Part shown: positions 13,101 to 57,078 of the stretch, one piece after another
How positions within the stretch are numbered: position 1 is the stretch's first letter
How the letters are laid out: each line of letters starts with the position of its first letter
From: a bacterium
GTDB lineage: Bacteria > UBP6 > JAFGXH01
Assembly: GCA_027064085.1 (NCBI GenBank)
Contig: JAMOQH010000188.1
Location: forward strand, 1-64,000
DNA length: 64,000 bases
Reading direction: 5' to 3'
Notes under the pieces: generated by a model
Seen by the model: only the letters and a program-made list of their open reading frames with translations
Told to the model about the DNA's origin: nothing
Database searches by the model: none
Position numbers and translations under genes: made by a program

Positions 13101-16100
13101 TCTAGATTATCTTCTTCTGAAGTAATTTCTAGTTGATTTGTTGATAATATTTTATCAATTGATTTAATAAAGTCACTATAAGATTCTGTAATATCAAGTA
13201 AGCCTTCAATGTTAACAATCATTTCTTCATTACTTGGATTTTCTTCAAAGTATTTTAGAGCATAGACTAAGGATTTATCAAAAATATTTAAGTTTTCCTT
13301 GTAAATATTGCTTAGTTTACTATATATTTCTAGTTTTAGAGCCTTTTCAATATCTTGTTCTAATACTAGGTTATATAATTCAGCTAGCTCTTCCCATTTA
13401 GAGATTGTCTCATAAGTTGTTTCTAAGGTTTCATAAATGCTTAAGATTAAACTTTCTTCATTTAAAAATGCTTCTAGATACAATAGTGCATCTTCATTAT
13501 AAGGATTTAAACTTAGTAATAAAGTTAAGGATTCTATAGATTTATCTAAGTCTTTTAAGTTTTCTTTTGAATTTTTAGCTCTATTTAATAAAGCGATTTC
13601 TTTATCATCTTCTATAACATTTTCTATTTCTAGCTTATAAAGGGCGTCTAACTCTTCAAATTTATTAAGTTTTTTGTAAATGTCTATTAATTTATTATAG
13701 TTTTCTGCCTCTTGTTGTTCGTTTTCAATCATGATTTTTATAAATTCAATACTTGCTTCTAAGTCATTTAAAATATCAACATAAACACTTATTATTTTTA
13801 ATAGAAATTCTTTTTTACTATAATATTCATCTTCGAATTCAACTGCAAGTTTGTATAATTCAATAAGTTTATTCCAGTCCTCATTATTTTGATATATAGT
13901 TTCTAATGTTTCAAACATATCTATGGAATGATTTAGTTGATAGATTTTCATATAGGTTTCGGATGCAGAGTTAATATCTTTTATAAAGTCTTGCTCTATT
14001 GTTGCTGCTTCATTTAAAAGGGTTACTCTATCATCTAGATTTTCTTTGGATTCTGCTTTAAAGAGATATAAGTCTCTAATGATAAGATAATCTTCTTTTT
14101 TTTGATAAGTATCTAAAAGTTTTTCAAATAATTCGTCATTGCTTGGTTTATTTTTAAATGCTTTTAAGAAGTATAAATTAGCCTTTTCTGTATCATTGTT
14201 ATTTTGATATATTGTAGCAATTTCATTATAAATTAAGTAATCTCCACCTTTTTCTTGAGATATTTTATCTAACTTTTCAAGAAGTAAAACTTCTTCATCA
14301 AGCTCAAATGATAATATTTCTTCTAAAACATTTTCATTTTCATTTTCTGTTCCATATCTAAGCATCTTAAATAATGTATTGTAAATATTTTCCTTTTCAG
14401 CTAAATATTCGTTGTATATATTATAAATTAACTCATAATATGTCCTCTTTTCTTTATCTGTTTCAGAGAGTTCAATGATTAGGTTATAGATTTTTATTAA
14501 ATCATTCCATAATTTTCTATTTGTAAAAAACTGAACAATTGTTTCTAAGTTACTAAAAAGTAATTCTTTTTTATTTAACAATAGCTGAAAAATAATTCCT
14601 CTTAATTCTGCTCGTGAAGAATCAGACAGTGTATCATGCACATCTATGTAGTGTTCTAATGTTTTTTGAGTGTCATTTTCTATATTTGAATAAATTTCTC
14701 CCAATTCAGAGATTATTCCTACAATATAATCATCATTTGTTTTTAGCATATCTTCCATAGTCAGAAGAATTTTTATAATTTCATCATAATTTTCTAGTTT
14801 TCTATAAAACAATTTTTTAGTTTCATATGCTTCAATAATTGTTTCGTCTATATCTATAACTGAATCTAATAATTGAATTGCTTCTTCAAGTTTATTAAAA
14901 TAAAGTCCTTCTACTTTTGCTAAAGCTACTTTATTTAATAATTTTTCATTATCTGGTAATAATTTATGTTTTTTTAGTAAGATATCGTGTAGCATTTCAT
15001 AGTTTTCTGATTCCAAATATATCTTTTCAAGAGAATTTAATATTTCTAGATTATCACCATCTTCATCTAGTATGACATTGTAAAAACTTTGAGCCGTATC
15101 ATGTTCTTTCATATAGATATCGTATATCTTTCCTAGTCTTGCAAGAATATTTATTCTTACCATTTTATCGTCTACTTCATCTTTATATTGTCTTAGAATA
15201 GATATTAAATCAGAAAAATCATCAAGTTTATAAGATAATTCTTCTAATGAATTTAATATTTCATTATTGCTCAAGTCTTTTATATATAATTCTTTTTTGT
15301 ATTGGTATGCTAATTGATATTCTTCAAAAACATCTGAAAGCAAAGTTGAAAGTTTTAGTTTATATACAGCATGATCTGTTTCAGATAAATTAAAGTCGTT
15401 TAAAACCTTTTCTAATAATATTCTTATGGAGTTATAATCTTCTAATTTATTATGGTATTTTAGCAATAAGTTTAATAATGGTAAATATTTTTTATCAAAA
15501 AGAATTTCCTCAAGATGAATTAATTTTTCTTTAGTAACATTTAATTCAAATGCTAAATCAAAAAATTCTACGAATTTTTCTAAATTTTCTAAATTATTTA
15601 AATAAGCTTTAGCTATTTCAGTATATAGTATTTCAAGTTCATCATTTTCAACCAATTTTGTTTTACTAACCGCAACATCTACCCATTCTTGATATCTATT
15701 TTCAGAAAGATAGAAAAACATTAACATATTAATCGCTGTTAAATTTTTATCATCAATATCTAAAATCATTTTTAAATATAATACGGCTTTTTCTGTTTCT
15801 TTGTTTTTATTAAAAGAAATGCTTGCCATTTCCTTTAATAAATCAATTTTTTTATCTCCGGAGAGGAAGTCTAATTTTTTACTATAGATAACTACAAGAT
15901 TCTCATAGTCATCAAGTAGTGCAAGAAGGTCTATTAAGTTATCAATATATTTTAGCTGTGGTTTTAAGTTTATTAATTCAAAATATAGAGTTCGGCTATC
16001 TTCATATCTGTCTAATTCTGTATAAACAGCTATTGCTCTATTATATAATTCCTCAATAATATTTTCATCATCAATTTCTTTAATTAAATCTATTAAAGTA

Positions 16101-18784
16101 TTTACAAAAAGTTCTCTATTGTTTCCATCTATAGATAATTCATTTAAATTGTCTATAATAAACATATCTTTTGTTAATAAAAATTTTTCTTTTTCGTTTT
16201 GAAAAGCATCTTCATATCTTTCTTGCTCCATATAAAGATTTGTTAGCTCATCAAAAATTTCAATTTTTTCATTTTCTGTATTCACAAGAGCAATTTTTTC
16301 TTTTATTATAGGAAAAATTAAATCCAATTTATCTATTTCTCTATATATTTGTTGGATTTTATCTAAAATTTCAATACTATCATGATAATAATTATTGTAC
16401 TCAATTAAAGCGTATAGTAATTTTTCATTACTTTCTAGGTAGTTTTCTGAAATTGATATAGCCTTAAGTGCATATTCTTTTCTTTTATCACCATCTAGTT
16501 TGTTAATTATTTCTAATACAATCTCATAGTAAAAGTTAAAATCATTAATGATTTCAAAAAGAGAATCAATTTCTTCAAATCTTAATGATTCAAAATATAA
16601 ATCAACTAGGCGCTTTAAAATATCTTTATTATCTTGATTTAATTGAATAAATTCTAAGTAATAATTAATTGCATTTTCAAAAGTTTCGGGGGTGTCATAT
16701 ATCTTTGCAAGGCTTAAAATAATATCAGAGTTTTTATCTAACTCATAAAGCTTTAATAATGCCTCTAATTGTTTTTCTGTATTATTATCGTTTTTAGAGT
16801 TTTTTAGTATGTTTTTATATGCAAAAATATTGTTTTCATCTATTTCTAATATTTTATTAATTATAAAATCAATTCTTGTTTTATCATTTTTTAAATTATC
16901 AATTGTAAAGTGATAAAGTTCTTTTAACATTTCAACTTTACTGTCATCGCTTTGACTTAATTCAATCTCTTTTAGTGTTAGGTCATATAATTTATCATAT
17001 TTTTTAGAATTTTGATATATTTCCTTTAGTCTTTCTAAGGCATCACCGTTTTCTACATCAATATCTAAAACTTTTTCATAATAAAGAGCGGCTTCCAAGG
17101 ATTTTCTTAGGTTTTTAATGTATACATCTGCTATTTGAAAATAAATCTCTATCCTTTCAAAATCATCAACGGCTTCTGCTTTTTGTATTAAAACTTTGAT
17201 GTATTCATTCCAACGATTTTTTGAATAATTGAAGTCTAATAAGAAATTAAGTGCTGTTATATTTTTAGGGTCATATGTTAGTAGTTTTTTATAAAGATTA
17301 GTTGTATCTTGTTTTAATTGAGTTGCTGTTAAATCAATTATTTCTTCTTGTACAAAGATTATTTCCTCAAGGTTTTCTTCTAGGTTTTTTTCAAGATAAG
17401 AAATATAATCTTTAAGTAAACTGAGTAGTGCTCTCCACTTTGAACTATCTTTATAAATTCTTTTTAATGCTTCAATTGCATCTTTATCGTTTGGTTTAAT
17501 CTTTAATATAGACTTGTAGGAATCCGTAACCTTAAACATATTATTTGCTACTTCAGCCACTTCAGCCATTTCTCTATAGACTTCAATAATATCTTCTTCG
17601 TTTTCTAGTGCTTTAATTTTTTTGGTTAATATTTCAAAAACTTTTCTATTATTTCCTTTGTGTTTATAGAATTCTAAATAAATATAATCATACTTAAAGT
17701 TTTTAGAATCTAGGCCTTCTGATTTTTTTGCATAGAATTCAGCTTTATCTAGATTATCGGTATACTCGTAAATAAACTCGACTAAAAAGTTAGTTAAATA
17801 TAGTTGATATTCCTTGTTATTTACTTTCTTTAAAATGCTTTCAATTAATTCAATTAATTCTTCATGCTTAGCGTTTTCAACCGAATAATTGACAGCAGAC
17901 TCTAAGATATCTTTATTGTCTGGAGTTAATGATAACAATGCTTTATATATAGAAAATCCTTTCTTTTTTACAACTCTATTATCTATAAATAATACATCAA
18001 GTAATTTCATATAATCTTTTTTATTTTCTTCATCAGGGGTTTCTTGAAGCTTATCTAGGATAAAATCCACAATAGGATCAATATTATTATTATCAATAAA
18101 AATTCTTTTTATAAGAAGAGAAATTTCTTCATTTTTAGGGTTTAATTCAATTGATTTAATTAGAAATTCTTGTGCTTTTAGCATATCGCTAGAATGATTC
18201 AAGTGAATTTCTGCAATATTTAGAAAATACATTGACTTTATTGAGTTATCATCAGTTGAATTTAATTTAGATTCAAAATTTTCAATCATTTTTTCCCAAT
18301 TGTTTTTAGCCATTAGGATTTCATCAATATTTTCTTCCAGATTTTCATTGTCTGGATTTAACTCTAGTGATTTATTATAAAATTTTAATGCAACAGATGG
18401 CTGTAAAAGCATTTCATTATAGAAATCTCCTAGCTCTAAGTAAAGTTTTGCTTTACTATCATTATTGTCTAGTATCATTGAATAGTATTCAGTAAGCTGG
18501 ATTAATTCTTTATATTTTCCATGGGTTTCATAATGAGATTTTAATAAGTTAAAAAACTCTTCACTTTCATAATGTTCGAATAGTTTAATCAAACTTGCTT
18601 CATATAACTCTTGACTAACACTAGGTTGTAATTTTATTAATTCTGAAAGTAAAGGATATTTTTTATCCAAGCTTATTATATCTCTTTTTAATAATAAATT
18701 ATAGAGAGTAATTATATCTTTGGGTAATGCTTTTTCTACAAACTCTTGAATAGATAAATTTTCTTCTAATAATCTTTTAATCAT
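7175..18784 (-). CDS. Giant tetratricopeptide-repeat protein (3869 aa) with a myxobacterial-type C-terminal degenerate peptidase-like domain
   Basis: Continuous TPR/HAT-like repeats (e.g. KAIEKFQAILEIEPQYLAALLELKNIF; RAIEAYKAIIELDDKNLEVIESLIGLYE). Non-repeat C-terminal about 400 aa (LHSLVRLYSEKKKYDRAFCY...VIVLGNDMIADRDDIETSFYLGRHLFYLLSEFYLV...ELTANRVGLIMCGDINRAI). Confidence 0.9.
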   Translation of the reverse strand: MIKRLLEENLSIQEFVEKALPKDIITLYNLLLKRDIISLDKKYPLLSELIKLQPSVSQELYEASLIKLFEHYESEEFFNLLKSHYETHGKYKELIQLTEYYSMILDNNDSKAKLYLELGDFYNEMLLQPSVALKFYNKSLELNPDNENLEENIDEILMAKNNWEKMIENFESKLNSTDDNSIKSMYFLNIAEIHLNHSSDMLKAQEFLIKSIELNPKNEEISLLIKRIFIDNNNIDPIVDFILDKLQETPDEENKKDYMKLLDVLFIDNRVVKKKGFSIYKALLSLTPDNKDILESAVNYSVENAKHEELIELIESILKKVNNKEYQLYLTNFLVEFIYEYTDNLDKAEFYAKKSEGLDSKNFKYDYIYLEFYKHKGNNRKVFEILTKKIKALENEEDIIEVYREMAEVAEVANNMFKVTDSYKSILKIKPNDKDAIEALKRIYKDSSKWRALLSLLKDYISYLEKNLEENLEEIIFVQEEIIDLTATQLKQDTTNLYKKLLTYDPKNITALNFLLDFNYSKNRWNEYIKVLIQKAEAVDDFERIEIYFQIADVYIKNLRKSLEAALYYEKVLDIDVENGDALERLKEIYQNSKKYDKLYDLTLKEIELSQSDDSKVEMLKELYHFTIDNLKNDKTRIDFIINKILEIDENNIFAYKNILKNSKNDNNTEKQLEALLKLYELDKNSDIILSLAKIYDTPETFENAINYYLEFIQLNQDNKDILKRLVDLYFESLRFEEIDSLFEIINDFNFYYEIVLEIINKLDGDKRKEYALKAISISENYLESNEKLLYALIEYNNYYHDSIEILDKIQQIYREIDKLDLIFPIIKEKIALVNTENEKIEIFDELTNLYMEQERYEDAFQNEKEKFLLTKDMFIIDNLNELSIDGNNRELFVNTLIDLIKEIDDENIIEELYNRAIAVYTELDRYEDSRTLYFELINLKPQLKYIDNLIDLLALLDDYENLVVIYSKKLDFLSGDKKIDLLKEMASISFNKNKETEKAVLYLKMILDIDDKNLTAINMLMFFYLSENRYQEWVDVAVSKTKLVENDELEILYTEIAKAYLNNLENLEKFVEFFDLAFELNVTKEKLIHLEEILFDKKYLPLLNLLLKYHNKLEDYNSIRILLEKVLNDFNLSETDHAVYKLKLSTLLSDVFEEYQLAYQYKKELYIKDLSNNEILNSLEELSYKLDDFSDLISILRQYKDEVDDKMVRINILARLGKIYDIYMKEHDTAQSFYNVILDEDGDNLEILNSLEKIYLESENYEMLHDILLKKHKLLPDNEKLLNKVALAKVEGLYFNKLEEAIQLLDSVIDIDETIIEAYETKKLFYRKLENYDEIIKILLTMEDMLKTNDDYIVGIISELGEIYSNIENDTQKTLEHYIDVHDTLSDSSRAELRGIIFQLLLNKKELLFSNLETIVQFFTNRKLWNDLIKIYNLIIELSETDKEKRTYYELIYNIYNEYLAEKENIYNTLFKMLRYGTENENENVLEEILSFELDEEVLLLEKLDKISQEKGGDYLIYNEIATIYQNNNDTEKANLYFLKAFKNKPSNDELFEKLLDTYQKKEDYLIIRDLYLFKAESKENLDDRVTLLNEAATIEQDFIKDINSASETYMKIYQLNHSIDMFETLETIYQNNEDWNKLIELYKLAVEFEDEYYSKKEFLLKIISVYVDILNDLEASIEFIKIMIENEQQEAENYNKLIDIYKKLNKFEELDALYKLEIENVIEDDKEIALLNRAKNSKENLKDLDKSIESLTLLLSLNPYNEDALLYLEAFLNEESLILSIYETLETTYETISKWEELAELYNLVLEQDIEKALKLEIYSKLSNIYKENLNIFDKSLVYALKYFEENPSNEEMIVNIEGLLDITESYSDFIKSIDKILSTNQLEITSEEDNLENSEVSDSEINETNEINESDTLETKDEKLPYELKLLLLTKKSNISEDFIEDKNVVISALYDLKDLEPNNLEYYEKLAIYLSELGLFQQLVELLTEQTEIVENPQEKIELYNRISEIYKEMLNDMSMAVKTYQKIIEIDYNNGLALDELEIIFDELDESNNDIKNSILETLKDSFLKLEDWDRYVSILKKKVDFIKTPENKKDLYINISKVNEEYLSNFEEAYDFYKKAFVLDFDSDLGYKLIDLTDTLSNYEDFISFIELNIESIKDETLSDKLHLKLGELYFEYMDNLEKAKEHFLKYTLYSENIDVLQKLEIIYQNNGDFKALEGIYNKLSVLSKVDEEKIDILQKLATIQEYELNDKESTILTLNKIIEISPNNIDVLKMLEVLNEGRKDALVEIYKLILNTELEEDDRVDVLLKLGRIYKEEGKWDEAEEVWNNILDINLEKKEAYLNLIELYSTNNNIEKLAENYENYILEYGLDLEDNERISYFNTLAELYNNKEKLNNYNKAIEKFQAILEIEPQYLAALLELKNIFLENALIDEFFDIMRVLISTLEQGYDDFNSSYNDSLILKYIKELNLNIKDLLLENFDLFENKLIEYESYDEVVQIASRDLEFFPKRNATLNRLIGIYESQEMYDELIIILDDKLSTVNELDEKLALYKRIADISLDKIGDSERAIEAYKAIIELDDKNLEVIESLIGLYEGLDDWEQIIPLLELKILLLDDNYPTYIKIINILIENIADYEKAFEYIAKTLALFINNAELLEIFNSLGEQSGLWNLYIDTADKILNILTDDSLKNSLIKNIASVYRDELGDIENSIKRYKLLLNLEPKNKEILFNLESLYSQEGNWSELSNILERIIDLEEDDSTIKEYYYKLSSNYEENLENIEKASEVLEELVNLYDDEIDALENLDRIYNDTENYPKLVNVYQKKIKHIDDYEEKISLWLQVIDFANEFDKQLVLKSYNEIIKLDINNEDAFNVLENSYRKQENWEELSILLNFLINNDSNFKIVSMLKLSNLLEKQDKIDDAISMYFNVINEYEPENIEAADNLIRIFNTNNNWEDLVELYRKLIDFENDEIRRVNYFNSLANIYVKEYQDFDTAKEFFDLALQENPASKEATKGLFEIFEAKEDWGEIINLLSDVANSTEDTEQAAEAFYKIGLIQETQLNSLEDAKSAFELALNNKYDFINAAIKLKEISFTLEDYESTISYLENLKELIEDQTKLIELNNEIGKLYVEKLDDPSSAIYAFEESLNLQTNPEAIMSLSNLYFIAEDFDNLNKLYDTHFEIILEGDRENRELHYFRRAMAKNFLNIEAELVYEYSLQAFNLNKLFKENLELLYKVSVQNRKSETVISVAKQRLVHYFDDIEVNTLGDMYVKLGVSYSDLKEFEKGEKYFNKALIIDEYNIDALKFAVDSYKRASQWPKVIEYYNKILKKINDYDEKLKIHYEIALIYKNELKNNKKAISHFEFLIQENLKNLTILNHMLEIYEALGDFKNFIVTLEDKLNFIDQNEEKEVIYYRLADLYYNKINDTKNSLKYLVKILEFNFKNSKVITAIEKLLTNVSAFADLEKIYINILSKLSPTDIDLSKYIYEKLSVLYTNQLQNYAKAINVYEKLINLDSNNSEVKQKLIDLCERLPEYYDRAIDLHLNNLKSEINFDSLHSLVRLYSEKKKYDRAFCYSALLSYSNKATEDEANFYNSYKPIMQIKINQTLSRATLEKYVYPANTQIAINEVFSRVSGIIANFYRKKKVKHIADIDAKRDLMSKESRVYKVAANVMNSIGLPNYDFYKSASFKGIRIENTKPKSVIVLGNDMIADRDDIETSFYLGRHLFYLLSEFYLVDISDSVGIGIHEFFKVILSVFVPSIQVGKEYSKLQKVLNKSTPSDTAALIEKLSSSGAIDLNPWLNNIELTANRVGLIMCGDINRAIKVIREDSSSFSKLPLKEKTDDLIKYSVSENYLELRDSLNIGIRVK

Positions 18785-26494: not shown

Positions 26495-29400
26495 TTATTT
26501 TTTATCAATTTTTTTATTAATTAGTTTAACTTTAAGTGAATTTAATAATGCAAAATAATTATCTTCTAATAAATACTTAAATATCTCTTCCAATTCTGGA
26601 ATCCGAGATAACTGCTCAATTATCTCATCAGAATCCATTATTAGATTATTAAGATTGTTAAATTTTAGGATTGCTCTAAGTAATATGTTGACATCTTCTA
26701 CAATAACTGCTCCTAAATTTAATGATGTTTTATATGAGGCGCCTATAAATTGCTTAAAATCAAAATCATTCCAATTAATAAAAGAGATAGTGTTTTTAAG
26801 GGAGTATAATTTTTTTCTAATAGTTCTTGATGTTCCTTTTGAAAATAATTTATGGTAATCATCTAAGCTATTATCATTAAATATTTTTTTCTCAGAAGTA
26901 TAGTTAATAATCATTTTCATAAATTTTATTAAACTGTCTACTGAATGATAGTTCAATAAGAAATTCATTGATTTTATTCTATCTAACTGAAGAACAATAA
27001 AATATGTTAATTGGGATTGATCCATATTTAACATAGAGTTGGGAAGAATAAGTGCTAAATTATCTGGATAAATAAAATTAAATTCTTTGTTTTCTAATTT
27101 ATTAATATATAAATCAATTCCTGTGATTTCTAATCTTTCCTTAATTTCTGTAAATGTTTTCCATATCTTATAGTTAGATTTTTGGGTAATTTTTTCAATA
27201 TTTTTATAGTCTGAAATTGTTTTTTTGGTTAATTTGCTTAATCCATGAATTGCTGTATATAGAATTTCTCTTAAAGCAAGGTTATCTTTATTAGACTTAA
27301 TAAAGATAAAATTATTATCACGATAAAGGTTATCTTTTTTAGGGTATTCTAGCTTTAAGCTTTGATAAATATTATTAGCATTTTTATTTTCTAGTTTTAT
27401 AGAATGTATAATTGATGCCATTATATATACTGGAATTTCCTTTTCTAATGACTTGTATATATAAAATAAATCATTTACTAAAAAAATATTATTCATATCC
27501 TTTTTGATGATTTCCGGATAATAAGTTAATACTTCTTTTATATATTTATCATCAGATGAAAAGATTTTTCTTAATTTATTAAGTGCAGCTAAGTTTCCAT
27601 TTAAATTAATTGCAAGTTTGTATTGATTAATTGCAGTATCAACTTTATTTAAATTTAAATTTAAATCACCAAGCCTTTTGTAAATAGACGATTTAATATT
27701 TTTATCATTAAATGTATCAATATTTTCTTCGAGTATAGAGATTGCACTTAAGTAATCAGAGCTATCAATAAAAAATTTAGAGTAATAATTTAATAATTCT
27801 ATTGATTTGGTTACCTGAAGCCAATGTAAGATTTTTTCCTGCCATCTTTCTTGATCTATACTTTTTTTAGATAATTCTAGGTATTCCAACATATAGTTAA
27901 TTTTATTGTCGCTATCATAACTAATTAATGAGAGCAATAATTCTAAAACTTGTTGTTTGTTTTTATTTCTCTTATAGATAGGTAAAAGACTATCCATTTC
28001 TTCAAACGACAATCGTTTTCTTTCTAGAAGCATGTCAGAGATTGACATAAGTTTATCAATCTGTTTCTCTATTAAATATGATTTAAATAGAAAATATAAT
28101 ACTTTTTGATAATTATCAACTCCGATATTTTTACTCGCAAGTTGTTCACCTAATTTAATGATTTCTTTATAATTTTGCTCTCTAAAATAAAAATTAATTA
28201 ATTTCATTTTTGCTTTAATATTATTAGGATTTAATTGAATTATCTTATTTAGAACAACAATGGATTCTTTTATGTTATTAGGATTTACCAAGAGTATAAT
28301 TTCAGATTTTTTTATCAACAAACTTTCTTTATAGCTTAAATCATTAACGGTAGTAACCTTATTGTCTATTATTTTTAATATTTTTTCATATTTATGGTTT
28401 ATTAAGTATAAATCATATAACTTATTAAAAGCTCTATCATCAGAAGGAGAGTCTTTGAGTATTTTTAATAATAAGTTTTCTGCATCATCATACTTATTAA
28501 ATTTTTCAATTAAAATAACGCTATTCTTATATAACATCTCATTTTTGACTTCAGGTAATAATTTATCATAATTTTCATTTTTTAACATTTTAATAATACC
28601 GTCAGTATTACCAGTTAGGTTATATAATCTGTTCTTACCTTGTAACGCTAAGAAGTGATTTTGTTCAAGATCAATAACCTTTTGATAGTATAAAAGAGCT
28701 TTTTCATAATCTTTTTTATAATATTCATAAACTAATGCAAGATGATAATTTAAATCTATTTCCTCTCTTTTATTTTTAATGTTCCCTAATCTAATTGAAA
28801 TTAAAGTTATTAAATCATTCCAAAGTGCATTTTTATACAATATATTGAAAAGCTTGTAGAAAACATGCGAACGAGTATTGTTATTAAATAGTAGAATATA
28901 TTCTTTTATTGGAAAATAGTTTATTTCATCATTATTCTCTGTAAATGAAATAATATATTGTAAAAATGCATATAACTCTTCGCCTTTTAATAATTCTATG
29001 TAATCATCTTTAATCAATATAACATTTTCAAATTTATTGTTATCAAAATACAATCTAATTAAAAAATCGTAATACTTTTTCTCTTTTTTTATGGACAATG
29101 CTTTTTTTAAATATTTTTCGGAATAAGCAAAATTATTTAAATATAGGTAATATAGCTGAGCAATATAAAAATTATTTTCAGAGTTTTTTCGCTCACCATA
29201 ATCCATTATAAGTGTTATAAGTTTTTTAATCTCTTTGGATTTTAAATAAAGGCTTTTTAATTCTTCAAAAGCGATTTTATTATCAGGATTATATTTTAGA
29301 GCTTCTTGGTATTTTTCAATAGCATCTTTAGGTGAATTCTCAGTATAATATTCTGCAATTTTACAACTATAGTCTGATTTTAAATTATTAGATGTTGAAT

Positions 29401-31459
29401 TGTCTATTTTCTCCCTTAACAAATCTATTAATTTATTATTTAATTTTAAACTATTATATATGTACTCTAATTCAGAAAAGACTTCAAAATTATTAATATC
29501 GTATTCTAGAGCTAATTCATAAAACTCCATTGCTTTTTCTAGATTATTTAGCTCTATTCTATAAATAGTTGCAATTCCCTTTAATAATATGGATTTTTTT
29601 TGATTTGAGGAGATAAATTCTATTTCGTTTAAGTTTAGTTCTATTAGTTCTTCCCAATTTTTAGATTCTTTATAGATGGCACTTAATTTCTGTAAAGCAG
29701 GAATATAGTTAGGCGAAATATCTAAAACCATTTTTAAATATGGAATAGAGTTGTTTTTATTTTTTAGGTTATTCACAAAAATATCTGAGATATTCATTAA
29801 TAAATTTATTTTATCATATTGATCAACAATATGATTGAGTTTAAAGTCATATAGATTAACTAAATCATCCCAAAAGCTACTTCTTTTATAGAGTTCTTCT
29901 AAGTAATTTACTACTTCCATATTATAGCCGTTATCATCTATAATAGTTTTAAATATTTTTATTGATTTACCAAAATCTTGTAATCTTTTAAAATATAACT
30001 TTCCTATCTCTATCTTTAAAGATAATACTTTATCTGGATCAACAGAATCTTTTATCACAACATTTAATACATCAATAACCTTATTCCATTGTTTGTTTGC
30101 ACGATAAAGTTTAAGTATTGATCTTGTTGCTGGGTAATATGAATCGTCAGTATTTCTTGATTTTAAATAATAAGTTTCAGCTAGTTTATAGTCTTTATTT
30201 TTTAGATATATTTCAGCAATTTTAAAATATAAAATTGCATTTAAATTATCATCATTGCTAATAAGTATTTCTTTAAGATGATAATTTACAAGATCGTTTA
30301 TATTATTTTCTAAATATGCGATTTTACTTAATGCTCGAATTGTGGAGAGATTATTGTTTAATAACTCTAATGATTTAGAATAATATTTTTTAGCATTTTT
30401 TATGTCATTTAATTTTGTTAGAAAGATATCTCCAACCTTATAGAATAAATTAGATCTTTCCTTATCTGTTTCAAGTAGGCTAAATTTTTTCTTTTGTATT
30501 TCAATTAATTTTTCCCAATTATAATTTTCGGCATAGTGACTTTCTAATTCACATAAAAGTAAGAAATTATCTTTAATATTTTGATAGTTTCCAATAAGAA
30601 TTCTATTTGCTTCTGATTTATTTTTAAGAATATCTTTGTATGTTCTATAAAGGATGTACAGATTATTAGCATTAAACTCTTTATTTTGATCAATTTCTGC
30701 TCTTAATTTTTTAGCAATAGCACTCCAGTTAATATTATAGCTAGGTATATTTAATTTTTTATTAAGTAAAAATAACTGTTCAATATAATAAGAAATATTT
30801 TCTTTAGATTTATATCTTCCTTGAAGAACGAGGGTAATTATATCTATTAGAATAGCTTCTTTAAAATCATTTGTTTTTGCATGGCTAAGTAAATCTTCTA
30901 TTAAATTACCATATTCATTAAATTTATTGTTTTTAAATAATAAAGACTTTAGTTTTCTTACAACAAAAAATTGTTCGTCATCATTGCTATTTAAATAATC
31001 AAGCAATGTTTTTTTGGAAAGTTCAAAATCATTTTTATAATTATTTATAATTTCACTTTTTAAAATAATTAAATATAATTTTTCATTTTTGTCTTCAATA
31101 TAACTTAATTCTGTATTTATTATATCTAAAACAAAATCCCAATTTTGCTTAGATATAAAAATTTCTCTTACGGCTTTTAAATTTGGTAAATAACTATTAT
31201 CAGCTTCATAAGATTTTTGAAAATTTACTATAGCTGATCTTGTATCCCCAACTTGATCTCTCCAAATCAATCCTATTTCATAGAATAAGGTAGCCTTTTC
31301 TTTATTAGATGTTAAGAACTTTATCTTTTTTTCAATATCTCTTATATGTATTAAGAGCTTTTTTTGTATGTTTTCATCCGGAATAGAACTTTTAGGCTTA
31401 CTCTTTCTTGTACTTTGTAATAAATTATTTAAATTATCATGAGAAATCTCGAATTTCAT
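26495..31459 (-). CDS. Second giant TPR-repeat protein (1654 aa), paralogous in architecture to 7175..18784
   Basis: Tandem TPR units (KAMEFYELALEYDINNFEVFSELEYIYNS; KALLYYQKVIDLEQNHFLALQGKNRLY) plus a non-TPR C-terminus (LALILPNSMLNMDQSQLTYFIVLQLDRIKSMNFLL...GASYKTSLNLGAVIVEDVNILLRAIL). Confidence 0.88.
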   Translation of the reverse strand: MKFEISHDNLNNLLQSTRKSKPKSSIPDENIQKKLLIHIRDIEKKIKFLTSNKEKATLFYEIGLIWRDQVGDTRSAIVNFQKSYEADNSYLPNLKAVREIFISKQNWDFVLDIINTELSYIEDKNEKLYLIILKSEIINNYKNDFELSKKTLLDYLNSNDDEQFFVVRKLKSLLFKNNKFNEYGNLIEDLLSHAKTNDFKEAILIDIITLVLQGRYKSKENISYYIEQLFLLNKKLNIPSYNINWSAIAKKLRAEIDQNKEFNANNLYILYRTYKDILKNKSEANRILIGNYQNIKDNFLLLCELESHYAENYNWEKLIEIQKKKFSLLETDKERSNLFYKVGDIFLTKLNDIKNAKKYYSKSLELLNNNLSTIRALSKIAYLENNINDLVNYHLKEILISNDDNLNAILYFKIAEIYLKNKDYKLAETYYLKSRNTDDSYYPATRSILKLYRANKQWNKVIDVLNVVIKDSVDPDKVLSLKIEIGKLYFKRLQDFGKSIKIFKTIIDDNGYNMEVVNYLEELYKRSSFWDDLVNLYDFKLNHIVDQYDKINLLMNISDIFVNNLKNKNNSIPYLKMVLDISPNYIPALQKLSAIYKESKNWEELIELNLNEIEFISSNQKKSILLKGIATIYRIELNNLEKAMEFYELALEYDINNFEVFSELEYIYNSLKLNNKLIDLLREKIDNSTSNNLKSDYSCKIAEYYTENSPKDAIEKYQEALKYNPDNKIAFEELKSLYLKSKEIKKLITLIMDYGERKNSENNFYIAQLYYLYLNNFAYSEKYLKKALSIKKEKKYYDFLIRLYFDNNKFENVILIKDDYIELLKGEELYAFLQYIISFTENNDEINYFPIKEYILLFNNNTRSHVFYKLFNILYKNALWNDLITLISIRLGNIKNKREEIDLNYHLALVYEYYKKDYEKALLYYQKVIDLEQNHFLALQGKNRLYNLTGNTDGIIKMLKNENYDKLLPEVKNEMLYKNSVILIEKFNKYDDAENLLLKILKDSPSDDRAFNKLYDLYLINHKYEKILKIIDNKVTTVNDLSYKESLLIKKSEIILLVNPNNIKESIVVLNKIIQLNPNNIKAKMKLINFYFREQNYKEIIKLGEQLASKNIGVDNYQKVLYFLFKSYLIEKQIDKLMSISDMLLERKRLSFEEMDSLLPIYKRNKNKQQVLELLLSLISYDSDNKINYMLEYLELSKKSIDQERWQEKILHWLQVTKSIELLNYYSKFFIDSSDYLSAISILEENIDTFNDKNIKSSIYKRLGDLNLNLNKVDTAINQYKLAINLNGNLAALNKLRKIFSSDDKYIKEVLTYYPEIIKKDMNNIFLVNDLFYIYKSLEKEIPVYIMASIIHSIKLENKNANNIYQSLKLEYPKKDNLYRDNNFIFIKSNKDNLALREILYTAIHGLSKLTKKTISDYKNIEKITQKSNYKIWKTFTEIKERLEITGIDLYINKLENKEFNFIYPDNLALILPNSMLNMDQSQLTYFIVLQLDRIKSMNFLLNYHSVDSLIKFMKMIINYTSEKKIFNDNSLDDYHKLFSKGTSRTIRKKLYSLKNTISFINWNDFDFKQFIGASYKTSLNLGAVIVEDVNILLRAILKFNNLNNLIMDSDEIIEQLSRIPELEEIFKYLLEDNYFALLNSLKVKLINKKIDKK

Positions 31460-48576: not shown

Positions 48577-48921
48577 TTATTTTTTAGTGCACTCATATAC
48601 AATTGTTGTTTCAGGAATAAAAGAGCCCCAAAATGTAAAAATTGTTAACATTGCATCTGTAAATGTTGTTGTTACTTCTATTTTAACTGGTTTATTTACA
48701 TCCGTAAGAAGAGATGATGTTAATACCTTCTTTTCTCCAAGATTCGCCAAGCCCCAAAAATAATACCAATCTCTTCTTTCTGCTGTTTTTACACATTTCA
48801 TATCTGAAGTTGCAAGAATTACTGGTTTATCTGGAGCTGCTACAATTTTTTGAGAACTACAAGAAGAAAATATAAAAATAGACATTATTAAAATTAAAAT
48901 ATATTTCATTATAAACCTCAT
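48577..48921 (-). CDS. Small lipoprotein, paralogue of 48918..49247
   Basis: Lipobox IFIFSSCSS; YYFWGLANLGE and a VTTTFTDAMLTIFTFWG segment shared in pattern with its neighbour. Confidence 0.65.
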   Translation of the reverse strand: MRFIMKYILILIMSIFIFSSCSSQKIVAAPDKPVILATSDMKCVKTAERRDWYYFWGLANLGEKKVLTSSLLTDVNKPVKIEVTTTFTDAMLTIFTFWGSFIPETTIVYECTKK

Positions 48922-49247
48922 TTAGTAGTATTGCATTTATAGACATTGCTTGTTCTAATACTATAAAGACCAAGTAATGATATCACAGAAACAAATCCAT
49001 CAACAAATGTAACTTCTGTTTCAACTCTAACGGTGTCACCATTTTTATATAATGTTTCAGGTCCTTCTCCAATTTGAAGTAATCCCCAAAAAAGATAGTG
49101 ACTTTTCTTATAATCAACATATTTACAACCATCTGTATTTTCTGTTAAGTAAACTTTTGTATTTGGTTTAGCAACGATAGTTTGTTTAACACAAGAAGTG
49201 GCAAATGTAATTATTAACATAATAATTATTCCATGAATTAATTTCAT
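48918..49247 (-). CDS. Small lipoprotein, paralogue of 48577..48921
   Basis: Lipobox ITFATSCVK; HYLFWGLLQIGE; ETEVTFVDGFVSVISLLG. Confidence 0.65.
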   Translation of the reverse strand: MKLIHGIIIMLIITFATSCVKQTIVAKPNTKVYLTENTDGCKYVDYKKSHYLFWGLLQIGEGPETLYKNGDTVRVETEVTFVDGFVSVISLLGLYSIRTSNVYKCNTTK

Positions 49248-50527: not shown

Positions 50528-53026
50528 ATGAGTGATATAGGGAAAATGCTAAGTGAAATTGATAATCTTAAGAATAAACTAGATAAGAAATACTCTAAGA
50601 AGATAACTATAATGTTTACTGATATTAAAGACTCTACTGTATATTTTGAAAAACATGGAGATATGAGTGGGCGAATGATGGTTGAAAAACATAACACACT
50701 ACTATTTCCTATTGTAAGTAAATATGGTGGAGTTGTAATTAAAACAATTGGTGATGCGATTATGGCTAAATATGATTTTGCCGTAAATGGAGTTAAGGCT
50801 GCAATTGAAATGCAAAGAACTCTTAAAGAGTACAATAAAACTGCAAGAGATAAAATTAGAATTAGGATTGGTTTACATACAGGCAAGGCAATTGTTGAAG
50901 AAAATGATGTATTTGGTGATTCTGTTAACTTAGCTGCTAGAATTGAAGCTGGAACAAAAGCTGAATTTATAACAATTTCTAAAAATACATTAGAAGAAAT
51001 TTCTGCATATAAAAACATTAAAGTTATACCATTAGGTGTTGTTAAATACAAAGGAAAAGAAGAAGAGATTGAAACTTATTCTGTTTTATGGGATAGTTCA
51101 ATTTTAGAAAAAAGAGTTAGAGGTGAAAATACCTGGTTACACGATAGCCTACTGATAAAAGTAACTCTTGAAAGCAATAAAATTAAAGTAAGATACAGAT
51201 ACTATTTAAATGAAAATAAAAAAGAAGAAATTTTTGAAAATATTGATAAAAGATTAATGTCTAAATTTTTAGAATATTTAGAACAACTTCGTTCATCAAC
51301 ACTACAAAAAAATTCTACAAAATTTGATTTTGAAAATTTTAAAAAGGAAAGTCAAAAAATATATAAAGAATTATTTTCAAGTAGTATTAATGAAATTTTT
51401 AATAAATCAGACTTGAAATATTTAGTTATAGATACAGATAGAAATTTTTCTTTTTTGCCTTTTGGTCTTTTACATGATGGAACAAATTTTTTAGGGTTAA
51501 AATATCCAATTTTTAGGCTAATAGACCATTTCAATAAAGTAGATGCTCAATATACATATTTTACATTTTTAGATTATACTCTTGATGAAGAGATAGAACA
51601 AGAGCATGAGTTTTCAATTATAAATAGCATATTTAAAGAAAATAATCTTGAATTATATGCTCCTAAAAAAGAATATGCTAAATTAGATGATTTAATAAAA
51701 ACATTAAATAGTATAGGGAAAAAATCAACTCATTTGCATTTTGCTTTTCATAATTTATTTTCAATAAATTTTGATGATATAAAATTTAAGAATACCTCAA
51801 TACAGTATAGAGATATAATAAAATCAAACTATAAATTAAGGTATATAATTGCAAATTCATGCAAAACAATACCAATTTTAACAAAGTTCATAGGTAAAGA
51901 TAATAATTTCTTATCATTTTTAAATGATGCAAATATAAAAATATATTTAGGTAATTTTTTTAATATTTATGATGAAGTTGGATTATATTTTAGTGAAATA
52001 TTTTATAGTTATATGCTTAAAGGCTATAGTTATCCAGAAGCCTTGTTTAAGTCTAAACTAAAATTAAGAGATAAATATGGTGAAAAAAGTTTAATATGGG
52101 CATCTTATGCTATTTTTGCAGATTCTGTTGAAACAGTTCTTGAAGCTATGATTGAAAATATAATAAATGAGGCTAGAGAAACAGTCACTGAGTTAAAAGA
52201 GCCTGAAAAAATTCATAATAAAGAAAAAATCAGGGGGGGGGCTGAAGTAGTTATTGACTCTTCTGTTTCTCTAAATACGAGCAAGAGTATTAACAGATAT
52301 TTATTTCTAGTAATTTTCCTGATTTTAATTTCTATAGTAGGTCTTTATATATTAAAACATAATGAAGGTGGTGGTGTAGGTGGAAAATTACCCATTACTA
52401 TGGATAAAAAAGAAATAAATAAAGAATCTGATAAAGTAATTAGAGCTGAGCCACACAATAGTGTGGTTCAGAAAAACGGAGATAATAAAAATAATGAAAA
52501 TAAGCTTCTAATGTATAAAGGAGTGCAACAAAGTGATGTTGTTAAGGATAATAATGTTGCAATAAAAAAGAATAATAATATAGCTGTAGATAAATCTTTA
52601 AATCGTTTGGTGGTTTTGTATTTTGATAATAATTCAAATAATAAGAAACTAAATCCTTTGAGAAAAGCTTTGGCAGATATGCTTATTGCTGATATTAGTG
52701 ATATAAAAAATGTAAATGTTGTGGACAGGGAAAAACTTGAAGATATAATAAGAGAGTTAAATTTATCAAAAACCAAGTATATAAAGCGTTCATCGGCCCT
52801 TAAAATAGGAAGAATGCTTAGTGCTAAATATATTATGGTTGGTTCTTTTATAGACCCTCCAATAGAAGGATTACCATTGAGGATAGATGCTAAGATAATT
52901 GATGTTGAAACAAGTGAAATAAAATGGGCAAAGGGTGTTACGGGTGATAAAAGGAAACTATATAAAATGAAAGATAAATTGATGGAAAAATTTAGAAAAA
53001 GTAAATTTTTAAAGGGGTTAAAATAA
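50528..53026 (+). CDS. Class III adenylate cyclase - CHAT (caspase-like) - TM - CsgG/TolB-like fusion protein
   Basis: Cyclase: ITIMFTDIKDSTVYF, GVVIKTIGDAIMAKY, VFGDSVNLAARIEAG (Lys and Asp at adenine-specifying positions). CHAT-like: LHFAFHN...LRYIIANSCKT...SLIWASYAIFAD. TM: YLFLVIFLILISIVGLYIL. CsgG-like: NRLVVLYFDNNS...VVDREKLEDIIRELNLS...LGxxLSAKYIMVGSF-type segment. Confidence 0.8.
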   Translation: MSDIGKMLSEIDNLKNKLDKKYSKKITIMFTDIKDSTVYFEKHGDMSGRMMVEKHNTLLFPIVSKYGGVVIKTIGDAIMAKYDFAVNGVKAAIEMQRTLKEYNKTARDKIRIRIGLHTGKAIVEENDVFGDSVNLAARIEAGTKAEFITISKNTLEEISAYKNIKVIPLGVVKYKGKEEEIETYSVLWDSSILEKRVRGENTWLHDSLLIKVTLESNKIKVRYRYYLNENKKEEIFENIDKRLMSKFLEYLEQLRSSTLQKNSTKFDFENFKKESQKIYKELFSSSINEIFNKSDLKYLVIDTDRNFSFLPFGLLHDGTNFLGLKYPIFRLIDHFNKVDAQYTYFTFLDYTLDEEIEQEHEFSIINSIFKENNLELYAPKKEYAKLDDLIKTLNSIGKKSTHLHFAFHNLFSINFDDIKFKNTSIQYRDIIKSNYKLRYIIANSCKTIPILTKFIGKDNNFLSFLNDANIKIYLGNFFNIYDEVGLYFSEIFYSYMLKGYSYPEALFKSKLKLRDKYGEKSLIWASYAIFADSVETVLEAMIENIINEARETVTELKEPEKIHNKEKIRGGAEVVIDSSVSLNTSKSINRYLFLVIFLILISIVGLYILKHNEGGGVGGKLPITMDKKEINKESDKVIRAEPHNSVVQKNGDNKNNENKLLMYKGVQQSDVVKDNNVAIKKNNNIAVDKSLNRLVVLYFDNNSNNKKLNPLRKALADMLIADISDIKNVNVVDREKLEDIIRELNLSKTKYIKRSSALKIGRMLSAKYIMVGSFIDPPIEGLPLRIDAKIIDVETSEIKWAKGVTGDKRKLYKMKDKLMEKFRKSKFLKGLK
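52233..52241 (+). repeat. G9 homopolymer inside the cyclase-CHAT gene, between CHAT and TM
   Basis: ATC AGG GGG GGG GCT read in frame at 9 G. 10 G gives AGG GGG GGG GGC TGA; 8 G gives AGG GGG GGG CTG AAG TAG. Confidence 0.95.
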
Positions 53027-53270: not shown

Positions 53271-54392
53271 ATGGCAAAAGATATAAACAAAAAACAATTC
53301 GATGAAACAACAAAGCTAAAACTAGATATATTCGGAGAATGTTTTGAAGAATGGCTACCAGTTTTTATTCATGATAGATACACTTCAGATATTTATATTT
53401 TTGACTTTTTTGCAGGAAGTGGTAAAGATATTGAAGATAACTTAGGAAGTCCTTTGATACTTCTAGATAAAGCTAAAGGAAACAAACTCCAATATTGTTC
53501 AAATACAAAAAAAGAAATAAATTTCATATTTAATGAAGCTAAACCTAGAAAAAGTAAAAAACTTGAAGAAAATGTAATAAATTATATTGAAGAATGTAAA
53601 AGTAAAAATAATTGTGAGACATGTTCATATAATTATGAAATTAAAAACTTTGAATTTAAAGATATTTTAAATGATGCAAATATAAAATCTATTTTAAAAA
53701 ATAAAGAATTTGGAAAATTTGTTATTTTAGACCAATATGGTTTTAAAGAGGTAGATGATGATATATTTAGGCAATTAATATCTTTTCCTAAAGCTGATTT
53801 TATATTTTTTATTACATCTTCATCTATAAATAGATTTAAAAAACATCCAAATATTATAAAATATATAGATACATCAAAAATTGAATTTGATGACCCTAAA
53901 GAAATACATAGAGCTGTAACAAAATATTTTAGAGACTTGATTCCTAAAGGTAAGGAGTATTATCTTCATAATTTTTCTATTAAGAAAGAAAATAGTGGTA
54001 ATTATTATGGATTAATATTTGGTTCTAATCATACTTTAGGAATGGAAAAATTTCTAAAAGTTTGCTGGAAACATGATAAGCTTTCAGGTGAAGCAAACTA
54101 TAATATTGATGATAACTTTGAAAAGGGGACTTTATTTTATGAAAAACAAAATATAAAAAAAGATCTTATAAGTAAAGAAATAGAAAATGAAATTTTATCA
54201 GGAAGTATAACTAGTAATATTGATGGTTTAAAGTATGCTATGCTAAAAGGTTGTGAACCAAAATTATTTACAGAAGTTGTTAAAAAACTTGAAAAAAACA
54301 ATAAAATAGAAAGGCTTGGAGATAAAAACTATAGTTCTACAAATATACATAGAGTAAAAAAATATAAAATAGGGATAAAAGATGAAACATAA
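53271..54392 (+). CDS. tcmP: Three-Cys-motif partner protein TcmP
   Basis: KLDIFGECFEEWLPVFIHDRYTSDIYIFDFFAGSGKDIEDNLGSPLILLDKA; FVILDQYGFKEVDDDIF. Paired with the adjacent DUF5131 gene. Confidence 0.85.
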   Translation: MAKDINKKQFDETTKLKLDIFGECFEEWLPVFIHDRYTSDIYIFDFFAGSGKDIEDNLGSPLILLDKAKGNKLQYCSNTKKEINFIFNEAKPRKSKKLEENVINYIEECKSKNNCETCSYNYEIKNFEFKDILNDANIKSILKNKEFGKFVILDQYGFKEVDDDIFRQLISFPKADFIFFITSSSINRFKKHPNIIKYIDTSKIEFDDPKEIHRAVTKYFRDLIPKGKEYYLHNFSIKKENSGNYYGLIFGSNHTLGMEKFLKVCWKHDKLSGEANYNIDDNFEKGTLFYEKQNIKKDLISKEIENEILSGSITSNIDGLKYAMLKGCEPKLFTEVVKKLEKNNKIERLGDKNYSSTNIHRVKKYKIGIKDET

Positions 54393-55131
54393 AATAGAAT
54401 GGACAGAAAAAACATGGAATCCTTCAGCAGGTTGTACTAAAATGAGCTCTGGTTGTGAAAATTGTTATGCAGAGGTAATGGCGAATAGATTACAAGCTAT
54501 GAGTGTAAAGGGGTATGAAAATGGCTTTGAATTCAATATTGTTCCTGATAGATTAAATGACCCTTTAAAAAGAAAAAAACCAACTGTTTATTTCGTTAAT
54601 TCAATGAGTGATATATTTCATAAAGAAATGCCTCTTGATTATTTAAATAAAATTTTTGATATTATTGAAAAAACTCCTCAACATACATATCAAATTTTAA
54701 CTAAAAGAGCAGATAGAATGTTTGAGTATTTTGAAAATAAAAAAATAGCAAAAAATATATGGCTTGGTGTTACTGTTGAAAATAAAAAGGATGGAATACC
54801 AAGAATAGATAAATTAAGAAATCTTAAAGCTAGTGTATTATTTCTCTCTGTTGAACCATTACTTGAAGATTTAGGTAAGATAAACTTAAAAAATATTAAC
54901 TGGGTTATTGTTGGTGGAGAGAGCGGGCATAAAGCTAGGCCAATGGACGAAACTTGGGTATTAAATATTAAAGAACAATGTAAAGCTAGTAATGTTGCAT
55001 TTTTCTTTAAACAATGGGGAACTTGGGGAGCTGATAAAGTAAAAAGAAACAAAAAAGATAATGGAAAAGTATTAAAAGGTAAGATTTGGCAAGAATATCC
55101 TGAATTTATAAAAAAACAATATACAATATAA
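54382..55131 (+). CDS. Phage Gp37/Gp68-family (DUF5131) three-Cys-motif protein
   Basis: IEWTEKTWNPSAGCTKMSSGCENCYAEVMANRL, VYFVNSMSDIFH, YQILTKRADRM, NIWLGVTVENKKDGIPRIDKLR, NWVIVGGESGHKARPMDETWV, FFFKQWGTWG. Overlaps the tcmP 3' end by 11 nt. Confidence 0.9.
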   Translation: MKHKIEWTEKTWNPSAGCTKMSSGCENCYAEVMANRLQAMSVKGYENGFEFNIVPDRLNDPLKRKKPTVYFVNSMSDIFHKEMPLDYLNKIFDIIEKTPQHTYQILTKRADRMFEYFENKKIAKNIWLGVTVENKKDGIPRIDKLRNLKASVLFLSVEPLLEDLGKINLKNINWVIVGGESGHKARPMDETWVLNIKEQCKASNVAFFFKQWGTWGADKVKRNKKDNGKVLKGKIWQEYPEFIKKQYTI

Positions 55132-55140
55132 GGATTAATC

Positions 55141-55660
55141 ATGAGTGAAATAAGAGCAGGTTTAATTGAGTCTAAATTAAAAATATATGTTTTTTTGGGG
55201 GGGGGAGAAAATGATACAAAATAAAAAAACAAAAAAATATCAATTGAATCTATCAATGTCAGCTTTAATAGATCAAGAAAAATATGAAAAATGGCTTAAA
55301 AATAAGGCAAGAACTCATTTAAAGCGTGACAAAAAACGAGGAAACATAAGTTCAACATATGAGTCATATAGAGTTGCAATACATGAAGCTGTTATTAATT
55401 CAAATGGTAAAGACGCTTATACTGGTGAAAATTTAGATTGGTCTTTGATAAATGAATATAATAATAAGGATTCTAAAAAATATGGAAGAGATTATAAAAA
55501 GAGGTTTGCTCTATTACCAACTATTGATCATGTTGGAGATGGAAAGGGGAAAGCTAATTTTAAGATTTGTTCTTGGCGGACAAATGATGCGAAAAATGAT
55601 TTATCCTATGAAATATTTTTAGAATTATGTAATAAAATTGTAAATTATTCAAAGAATTAA
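55141..55660 (+). CDS. HNH-endonuclease-like protein; apparent native start at 55141 is out of frame with the body across a G9 tract (as sequenced, translatable from 55187 or 55211)
   Basis: Body: DAYTGENLDWSLI...FALLPTIDHVGDGKGKANFKICSWRTNDAKNDLSYEIF (HNH-like spacing of YTG, DH, C..N..K). ATG 55141 has SD AAGGA and reads MSEIRAGLIESKLKIYVFLGGGENDTK* at 9 G, but MSEIRAGLIESKLKIYVFLGGEKMIQNKKTKKYQLN... at 8 G. Confidence 0.6.
55197..55205 (+). repeat. G9 homopolymer at the 5' end of the HNH-like gene (preceded by T7)
   Basis: GTTTTTTTGGGGGGGGGAGAAAATG read directly. Confidence 0.95.
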
Positions 55661-55777: not shown

Positions 55778-57078
55778 ATAAAACCTAATACTTTCGGAAA
55801 CAGATTTAAAATAACAACTTTTGGAGAAAGCCATTCTGTTGCAATGGGTGTTTTAATAGAAGGTATTAAGCCTAATGTTAAAATAAGTATTAGTGATATT
55901 CAAAATTTACTTGATAAAAGGAAGCCAAAGGGAAAATTAACAACTAAAAGAAAAGAAAATGATGAGCTTGTAATTTTATCAGGTGTTTTTGAAGGAAAAA
56001 CACTTGGAAGTCCTATTGTTGCTATTGTTTATAATAAAGATGCTAAATCAAAGGATTATACCGATATTAAAGATGTGTTTAGGCCGTCTCATGCTGATTT
56101 TACATTTTTTAAAAAGTATGGAATAAGAGATTATCGTGGTGGTGGTAGAAGTAGTGGCCGTGAAACTGTGAGTAGGGTAATAGCAGGAGCTGTGGCAATT
56201 TCATTTTTAAGTGACAAGTACAATATAGAAATAATCTCAAAAATAACTCAAATTGGTCCTTTTAAAACTGATAAATGGGACAAAACTAGTGATAATCTTC
56301 CATTTGCCGATGAAACTCAACTTAAAGATATTGAAAAATATATTAATTCACTCCATGGGGATAGCATTGGAGCAATCATAGAATCCCGAATTGAAAATTT
56401 ACCACTAGGCATAGGGGAACCCGTTTTTGAAAAATTAGAAGCGAATATTGCAAAAGCAGTTTTAAGTATTGGTGCAACCAAGGGGATAGAATTTGGAGAT
56501 GGTTTTGATTTTGCAAATAAAAAGGGAAGTGAAGTAAATGACCAGATGGATAAAAGAGGTTTTTATCAAATCATTCAGGTGGAATACTGGGAGGAATATC
56601 AAATGGAGAAACGGTTGTATTTAGAACAGTGATAAAACCTACTCCATCAATATCGAAAGAACAAAAAACAGTTAATGAAAATAATCAAGAAGTAAAAATA
56701 AAGATAAATGGACGACATGACCCTTGTATTGCAATAAGGGTAATACCCGTAATAAACAGTATGGTTGCATTAAGTTTACTAGATTTAATAGGTGATAGCC
56801 GTTTAGTAGAACCAAAAGAGAAACTTGAAGTATTAAGAGATGATATCTCGGAAATAGATAAAAATATTTTTTTATTGCTTGATGAACGATTTAATATAGT
56901 AAAAAAAATTATAAAATATAAGAAAAAGAAAAATATAGCTATAGAAAATAAAAATATAGAACAAAATTTAATAAATAAAATACAAAAATTAGAACTAAAA
57001 AATTTAACAAATGACTTCATTAAAAAATTATATAATAAAATTTTTAATGAATCTAAAAGGATACAGAAAGATGATTAA
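55778..57078 (+). pseudogene. aroC: Chorismate synthase fused to an AroQ-type chorismate mutase domain; ATA in the start position and one frameshift
   Basis: Frame read from ATA 55778 (SD AGGAGG 55767-55772): IKPNTFGNRFKITTFGESHSVAMGVLIEG...FRPSHADFTFFKKYGIRDYRGGGRSSGRETVSRVIAGAVA...; frame shifts at T5 56560-56564; continues [29 protein letters not shown]...GRHDPCIAIRVIPVINSMVALSLLD, then LEVLRDDISEIDKNIFLLLDERFNIVKKIIKYKKKKNIAIEN...IFNESKRIQ (AroQ). Confidence 0.85.

Follow-up and report, generated by a model that had tools for sequence, protein, structure and literature searches.

A class III cyclase fused to a divergent CHAT-like region and a CsgG-like arm, and its relatives beside ECF sigma and anti-sigma factor genes

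The gene and its reading frame

The window (the whole stretch of DNA that was analysed, 64,000 nucleotides long) carries on its forward strand a gene that opens with ATG and runs through 832 open codons, and the strand opposite is rich in stop codons. The earlier note on this DNA had described a cyclase, a CHAT-like region, a transmembrane helix and a CsgG-like arm joined in one ORF, and Pfam searches, hydropathy, a family alignment and a fold search all bear this architecture out (Table 1). The gene stands isolated, with rpsI about 270 bases upstream and the nearest downstream ORF 245 bases away, and the window neighbours that were examined comprise ribosomal protein genes, the candidate defence pair PDC-M30 and a chorismate synthase-like gene.

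A genome from the same family (G001) encodes a full-length homologue 46% identical to the window protein, and in another genome of that family (G002) the homologue is present as split pieces. Between these sister copies, dN/dS was 0.03 for the cyclase and 0.11-0.13 for the CHAT region, and the highest value, 0.44, was that of the extracytoplasmic linker. The cyclase and CHAT values indicate that the sister branch is maintained, and the existence of a full-length copy at 46% identity together with the CHAT value shows that the window gene is neither an ORF that is open by chance nor a piece of decaying sequence.

Table 1. Positions in the window of the cyclase/CHAT-like/CsgG-like gene and of its domains and candidate functional residues.
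Feature	Residues	Position	Strand	Basis
Whole gene (cyclase, linker, CHAT-like, TM, periplasmic linker, CsgG/LpoB-like)	832 aa	50528..53026	+	ORF, Pfam, family alignment
Class III adenylate/guanylate cyclase domain	21-185	50588..51082	+	Pfam Guanylate_cyc 2e-21
Metal Asp (FTDI)	D32	50621-50623	+	sequence motif
Metal Asp (GDAIM)	D76	50753-50755	+	sequence motif
Strand/helix linker between cyclase and CHAT, common to family	190-295	51095..51412	+	alignment, model
CHAT-like caspase/separase-fold region	about 296-545	51413..52162	+	26-sequence alignment, Foldseek
Gly at the predicted S1 acid of the PWEL motif (Glu in all 25 other aligned members)	G313	51464..51466	+	alignment
H-F-A-F-H, candidate catalytic His = H408	H404-H408	51737..51751	+	both His invariant 26/26
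Candidate catalytic Cys (ANSC)	C445	51860..51862	+	invariant 26/26
Invariant acid after GTFW-like strand (GNFF in window protein)	D482	51971..51973	+	26/26
Single TM helix	about 586-607	52283..52348	+	hydropathy; helix in model
Low-complexity, low-confidence extracytoplasmic linker		52349..52597	+	pLDDT <50; highest sister-pair dN/dS 0.44
CsgG/LpoB-like domain	693-801	52604..52930	+	Pfam CsgG aa 693-775 2e-9; LpoB aa 694-801 9e-6

The cyclase domain

That the N-terminal part is a class III cyclase with metal-binding Asp and adenylate-type Lys/Asp residues, as the earlier note had it, is confirmed by the Pfam match, by the best PDB match of this part (the Ma1120 cyclase, 2e-20) and by the residues themselves: D32, K72, D76, D127, N134 and R138 are all present in the window protein and are invariant in the four full-length homologues aligned. 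By analogy with other class III cyclases we take D32 and D76 to be the metal ligands, K72 and D127 to be the adenine-type pair and N134 and R138 to be the transition-state residues, which makes the class III adenylyl cyclase set (two metal Asp, adenine Lys/Asp, Asn/Arg) complete, and judged by its sequence the window cyclase would produce cAMP. It shares both catalytic residues and sequence family with class III adenylyl cyclases such as the Ma1120-like catalytic domain, but unlike them it is one part of a larger protein that also has a CHAT protease and a CsgG-like arm.

Among the relatives described below, the cyclase is missing at four loci (L049, L052, L060 and L070) and degenerate at two (L054 and L059). 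The cyclase is thus an optional module, with the CHAT protease as the family's conserved core.

The window's own genome also holds a paralogue (L002, a region that is also L046) in which the same cyclase head, 51% identical, is joined through a TM segment to NlpC/P60-like repeats. Its close neighbourhood includes an ECF-like sigma factor and a TM-bearing zf-HC2 anti-sigma.

The CHAT-like region

Neither Pfam, NCBIfam nor PADLOC returned a CHAT match on the window protein, and Pfam CHAT (PF12770) has no match elsewhere in its genome; the window domain is too divergent for direct detection by Pfam. The full-length structure model has a pLDDT below 50 over much of this region and was used for the cyclase, TM and CsgG parts only. 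A model of the CHAT region, itself of moderate confidence (pLDDT 67, pTM 0.67), retrieved Csx29 as its best Foldseek match (5e-7), followed by separase (1e-5) and SAVED-CHAT (2e-4). The comparison with CHAT, separase and caspase folds that the earlier note had proposed therefore came out in favour of the fold, with E-values down to 5e-7, but the protein itself goes unmatched by the Pfam CHAT profile. A sequence search for solved CHAT relatives gave one weak match, the SAVED-CHAT structure 8tl0, and the same search with single relatives as query gave nothing useful.

The region can be aligned with those of its relatives (26 sequences), and in this alignment H404, H408 and C445 are invariant in all 26, so that the His of the HFAFH motif and the Cys of the ANSC motif, both suggested in the earlier note as candidate catalytic residues, lie at homologous positions kept throughout. 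With a predicted clan CD caspase/separase fold and a candidate His-Cys dyad at homologous positions, the CHAT reading is right on two grounds: the family alignment with its invariant His and Cys, and the fold matches to Csx29, separases and SAVED-CHAT.

The window copy nevertheless departs from the family. The acidic S1 residue of Arg-specific clan CD proteases (separase/gingipain-like), at a site set by motif, is absent, the position being G313. F407 replaces the Gly before H408, and several other family-wide residues are changed. Both same-family genomes keep the His/Cys dyad, and G001 also keeps the S1 Glu.

The transmembrane helix and the CsgG/LpoB-like arm

A single TM helix is seen both in the hydropathy profile and in the model, and the C-terminal domain matches two Pfam profiles above their cut-offs (CsgG, 37.3 bits against 20.8; LpoB, 26.1 against 22.3), again in line with the earlier note. 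By its inferred topology, the window protein is probably a single-pass inner-membrane receptor, with the cyclase head and CHAT region in the cytosol and the CsgG/LpoB-like domain outside; as a class, "transmembrane sensor/effector" was the right term for it. A separate CsgG-TPR protein of the same genome (L003) is 43% identical to the window CsgG/LpoB-like domain.

A family of relatives in several phyla

When 85,462 species genomes were scanned once, 28 loci with the same domain order and strong CHAT matches emerged. They come from metagenome-assembled genomes of Desulfobacterota, Nitrospirota and Nitrospinota, under titles that include Deltaproteobacteria, Desulfobacterales, Nitrospirae, Nitrospinia and others, and the domain order of the window protein recurs across family loci in several phyla. 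Among 23 aligned members, Pfam detects CHAT in 20, the cyclase in 20 and CsgG in 20. A protein from another phylum (G066) has the order cyclase, CHAT, TM and TPR, with a CHAT match of 3e-42, and its C-terminal part aligns with the window CsgG region. We consider it probable, as part of the joint estimate given below, that the window protein is a divergent, stand-alone member of this transmembrane CHAT protease family.

Two of the cyclase-less relatives are followed directly downstream by a further TPR-CHAT protein that looks canonical and begins like a lipoprotein (L049, 6986-9979; L052, 7078-9618).

ECF sigma and anti-sigma factors beside the relatives

Counting the loci with at least 1.5 kb of upstream sequence, 16 of 19 have an ECF sigma factor and a soluble zf-HC2 anti-sigma upstream on the same strand. 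The anti-sigma gene is immediately upstream of the CHAT gene, and at L049 and L052 the ECF gene lies some kilobases further upstream. At L050, L053 and L069 the pair went undetected despite the CHAT protein. Many loci have, before or after the CHAT gene, a protein that resembles a lipoprotein and combines TPR, Ig-like and CsgG domains. Across a sample of 594 genomes from two phyla, the CHAT protein occurs in 23 and a full-length anti-sigma in 15, all of which are among those 23, and in 14 of the 15 both genes are on the same contig. The hypergeometric probability of this co-occurrence, 2e-24, is rough and overstated because the genomes are related and the query loci were drawn from some of those sampled.

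Conserved neighbours of this kind point to regulated transcription. The earlier note had hinted instead at immunity or programmed death. Spelled out, such a reading would have the cyclase sense or signal infection and the CHAT domain kill the cell. CHAT proteases and Pycsar cyclases do occur in defence, and caspase and cyclase domains are known in conflict systems, partly as alternatives in the same component. At the window gene itself, however, PADLOC gives only weak PycC matches (1e-7 at best), which generic cyclase homology explains, and no Pycsar effector was identified next door. A candidate defence pair, PDC-M30A/B, does lie just downstream, but it was seen beside the window copy only, and a defence-island reading was rejected on that account; the neighbourhoods of the sister copies yielded no defence partner, and what is conserved beside the relatives is the sigma factor with its soluble anti-sigma. 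Evidence that the protein acts in immunity or cell death is weak, the hint is not supported, and we regard an immune effector as very improbable.

The window copy as an orphan

The operon of CHAT, anti-sigma and ECF genes found in those 16 relatives is absent at the window copy. No soluble anti-sigma was found in the window's genome or in the two genomes of its family, nor was a linked ECF factor, and the 64-kb window has no ECF or anti-sigma HMM match. Membrane-bound zf-HC2 anti-sigmas from these three genomes were rejected as partners, as they match in the zinc finger alone. The window copy is a derived orphan that lost these neighbours.

With no sigma/anti-sigma pair found for it and Gly in place of the S1 Glu, the window copy probably signals through cAMP; its protease activity may be lost or, if retained, is probably directed at a different, new substrate. 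The more radical version, a degenerate protease whose CHAT region serves as a scaffold or dimerisation module, with cAMP as the sole output as in the paralogue with NlpC/P60-like repeats, would account for the lost S1 Glu, the lost Gly beside the His, the other changed family-wide residues and the invisibility of the domain to Pfam, as well as for the partner anti-sigma not being found in the window genome. That paralogues combine this cyclase head with different sensors, and that the cyclase of the sister pair is under stronger constraint than its CHAT region, also agree with it. Against this, the window protein retains the two invariant His and the Cys, and the sister copies keep the dyad (one of them the Glu too), with their CHAT region under purifying selection. 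We consider outright degeneration a minority possibility, though a serious one, and prefer to read the window copy as a divergent member of the receptor family.

An invariant arginine in the anti-sigma linker

In the anti-sigmas of the relatives, a linker joins an RsiW-like zinc-finger part to a C-terminal part whose sequence looks beta-rich, and 25 of 26 have no TM segment. One linker Arg is invariant in all 26 non-redundant anti-sigmas, whose mean pairwise identity is 24%. The residue after it is G (16), S (6), N (3) or A (1), and the one before it is V, L, I, A, F or M. The zinc ligands are present in 24 of 26, and no other column in the stretch from 30 residues before the Arg to 12 beyond it exceeds 16/26. 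The L057 and L065 anti-sigmas retain the Arg, their zinc ligands being gone.

Clan CD peptidases mostly favour a basic P1 residue, and separases accept Arg (PMC4357240, PMC4626109); in a published separase model, an acid just after the first strand recognises P1-Arg (PMC4626109). Placed by motif, the Glu of the family's PWEL sequence, which is invariant except in the window protein, would sit at the site of this separase S1 acid. The invariant linker Arg and the predicted S1 Glu thus agree as enzyme and proposed substrate.

It is also conceivable that the CHAT protein of the relatives regulates sigma without cutting the anti-sigma, the Arg being structural or needed for binding and the proteolysis directed at another protein. 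Cleavage of the anti-sigma is predicted rather than observed, and the C-terminal part of the anti-sigma has two further invariant columns, an Arg and a Ser. The linker Arg, however, stands in an otherwise poorly conserved stretch, has a small residue after it in 26/26 and outlasts the zinc ligands, and the protease has a separase-like acid at its predicted S1 site. We therefore find regulation without a cut unlikely and favour cleavage after the linker Arg.

Comparison with known systems

The nearest parallel is the type III-E CRISPR system of Csx29, Csx30 and CASP-sigma, in which a CHAT protease is likewise tied genetically to an ECF sigma factor and a protein inhibitor, and Csx29 is also the best structural match of the window CHAT region. 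In that system, Csx29 cuts Csx30, the inhibitor of the ECF factor CASP-sigma, and inhibition is relieved (PMC10028731). In contrast, the family protease is membrane-bound and usually fused to a cyclase, its CsgG arm is extracytoplasmic, and no CRISPR gene was noticed beside it. Its inhibitor, unlike Csx30, is a zf-HC2 anti-sigma, and no sequence link between the two was found; no Cas7-11/Csx30 partnership was seen among the window neighbours examined. CalpL, CalpT and CalpS of type III CRISPR are a protease, an anti-sigma and an ECF factor in which CalpL cuts CalpT (PMC11417357), but CalpL is a Lon-SAVED protease, Lon-type and cA4-activated, without a CHAT fold.

ECF54 sigma factors have CHAT, carboxypeptidase and subtilase neighbours, and proteolytic control has already been proposed for them (PMC8999054). 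A general link between ECF factors and CHAT genes is thus not wholly new, as that review notes CHAT genes near ECF54. By description, which is the basis of our comparison, ECF54 resembles the family in having an ECF factor next to CHAT genes but is said to be free of anti-sigmas, whereas the family has a dedicated soluble one beside the CHAT gene. Systems of the RseA/DegS and RsiW type likewise pass an envelope signal to an ECF factor through the cutting of an anti-sigma, and the zinc-finger part of the family anti-sigma is RsiW-like; the family differs in having a soluble anti-sigma and a receptor that carries its own protease.

The earlier note knew of no described system with this exact architecture, and our literature search agrees within its reach, which covered a minority of subscription papers: no paper was found that treats a CHAT domain and CsgG together, and none of those containing "CHAT domain" and "adenylate cyclase" describes the window fusion, judging mostly by their titles. 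Two things appear new: the cyclase/CsgG fusion, and a dedicated anti-sigma that is soluble and has an invariant Arg.

Proposed mechanism

The relatives look like protease-triggered gene switches, because their neighbours are a stress sigma factor and an inhibitor in which the protease could cut at an invariant Arg. In these relatives, an envelope signal would reach the CsgG arm, acting as sensor, and activate the cytosolic CHAT domain, which would then cut the soluble anti-sigma after the invariant linker Arg and so free the ECF sigma factor; the cyclase would be an optional second output or input. Cleavage is proposed on the precedent of Csx29/Csx30 and CalpL/CalpT, and trigger, sigma release, cAMP production and topology are likewise what we infer. 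For the explanation as a whole (a receptor family, anti-sigma cutting and ECF release in the relatives, and a divergent window copy) we estimate a probability of roughly 0.6.

We would give even odds to a broader proposal: a CRISPR-independent class of transmembrane receptors with an Arg-cutting CHAT arm, often with a cyclase, that converts an envelope signal into sigma release by one anti-sigma cut, is possibly related to the source pathway of the type III-E Csx29/Csx30/CASP-sigma arm, and has the window lineage as a rewired orphan branch. If this is right, CHAT protease-to-sigma switching is not a CRISPR peculiarity but also serves envelope sensing in several mostly uncultured phyla, and a CHAT family so far known as annotation only gains a substrate, a specificity and a predicted cut site that can be tested.

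Other genes in the window

The PDC-M30 pair directly downstream of the gene (53271-55131) consists of PDC-M30A (1.5e-113) and PDC-M30B/DUF5131 (9.5e-117), both called by PADLOC, and is followed by a small ORF (55187-55660) with no Pfam match. At 55844-57078, chorismate synthase seems split across two overlapping frames near 56560-56630, likely by a frameshift or assembly error, and a chorismate-mutase-like segment may come after it. Upstream of the gene, two small lipoprotein-like genes lie in tandem at 48577-49247, with weak to clear Lambda_Bor matches. Further away, the window encodes a TPR repeat-rich ORF of 3869 aa (7175-18784) and another TPR protein of 1654 aa (26495-31459).
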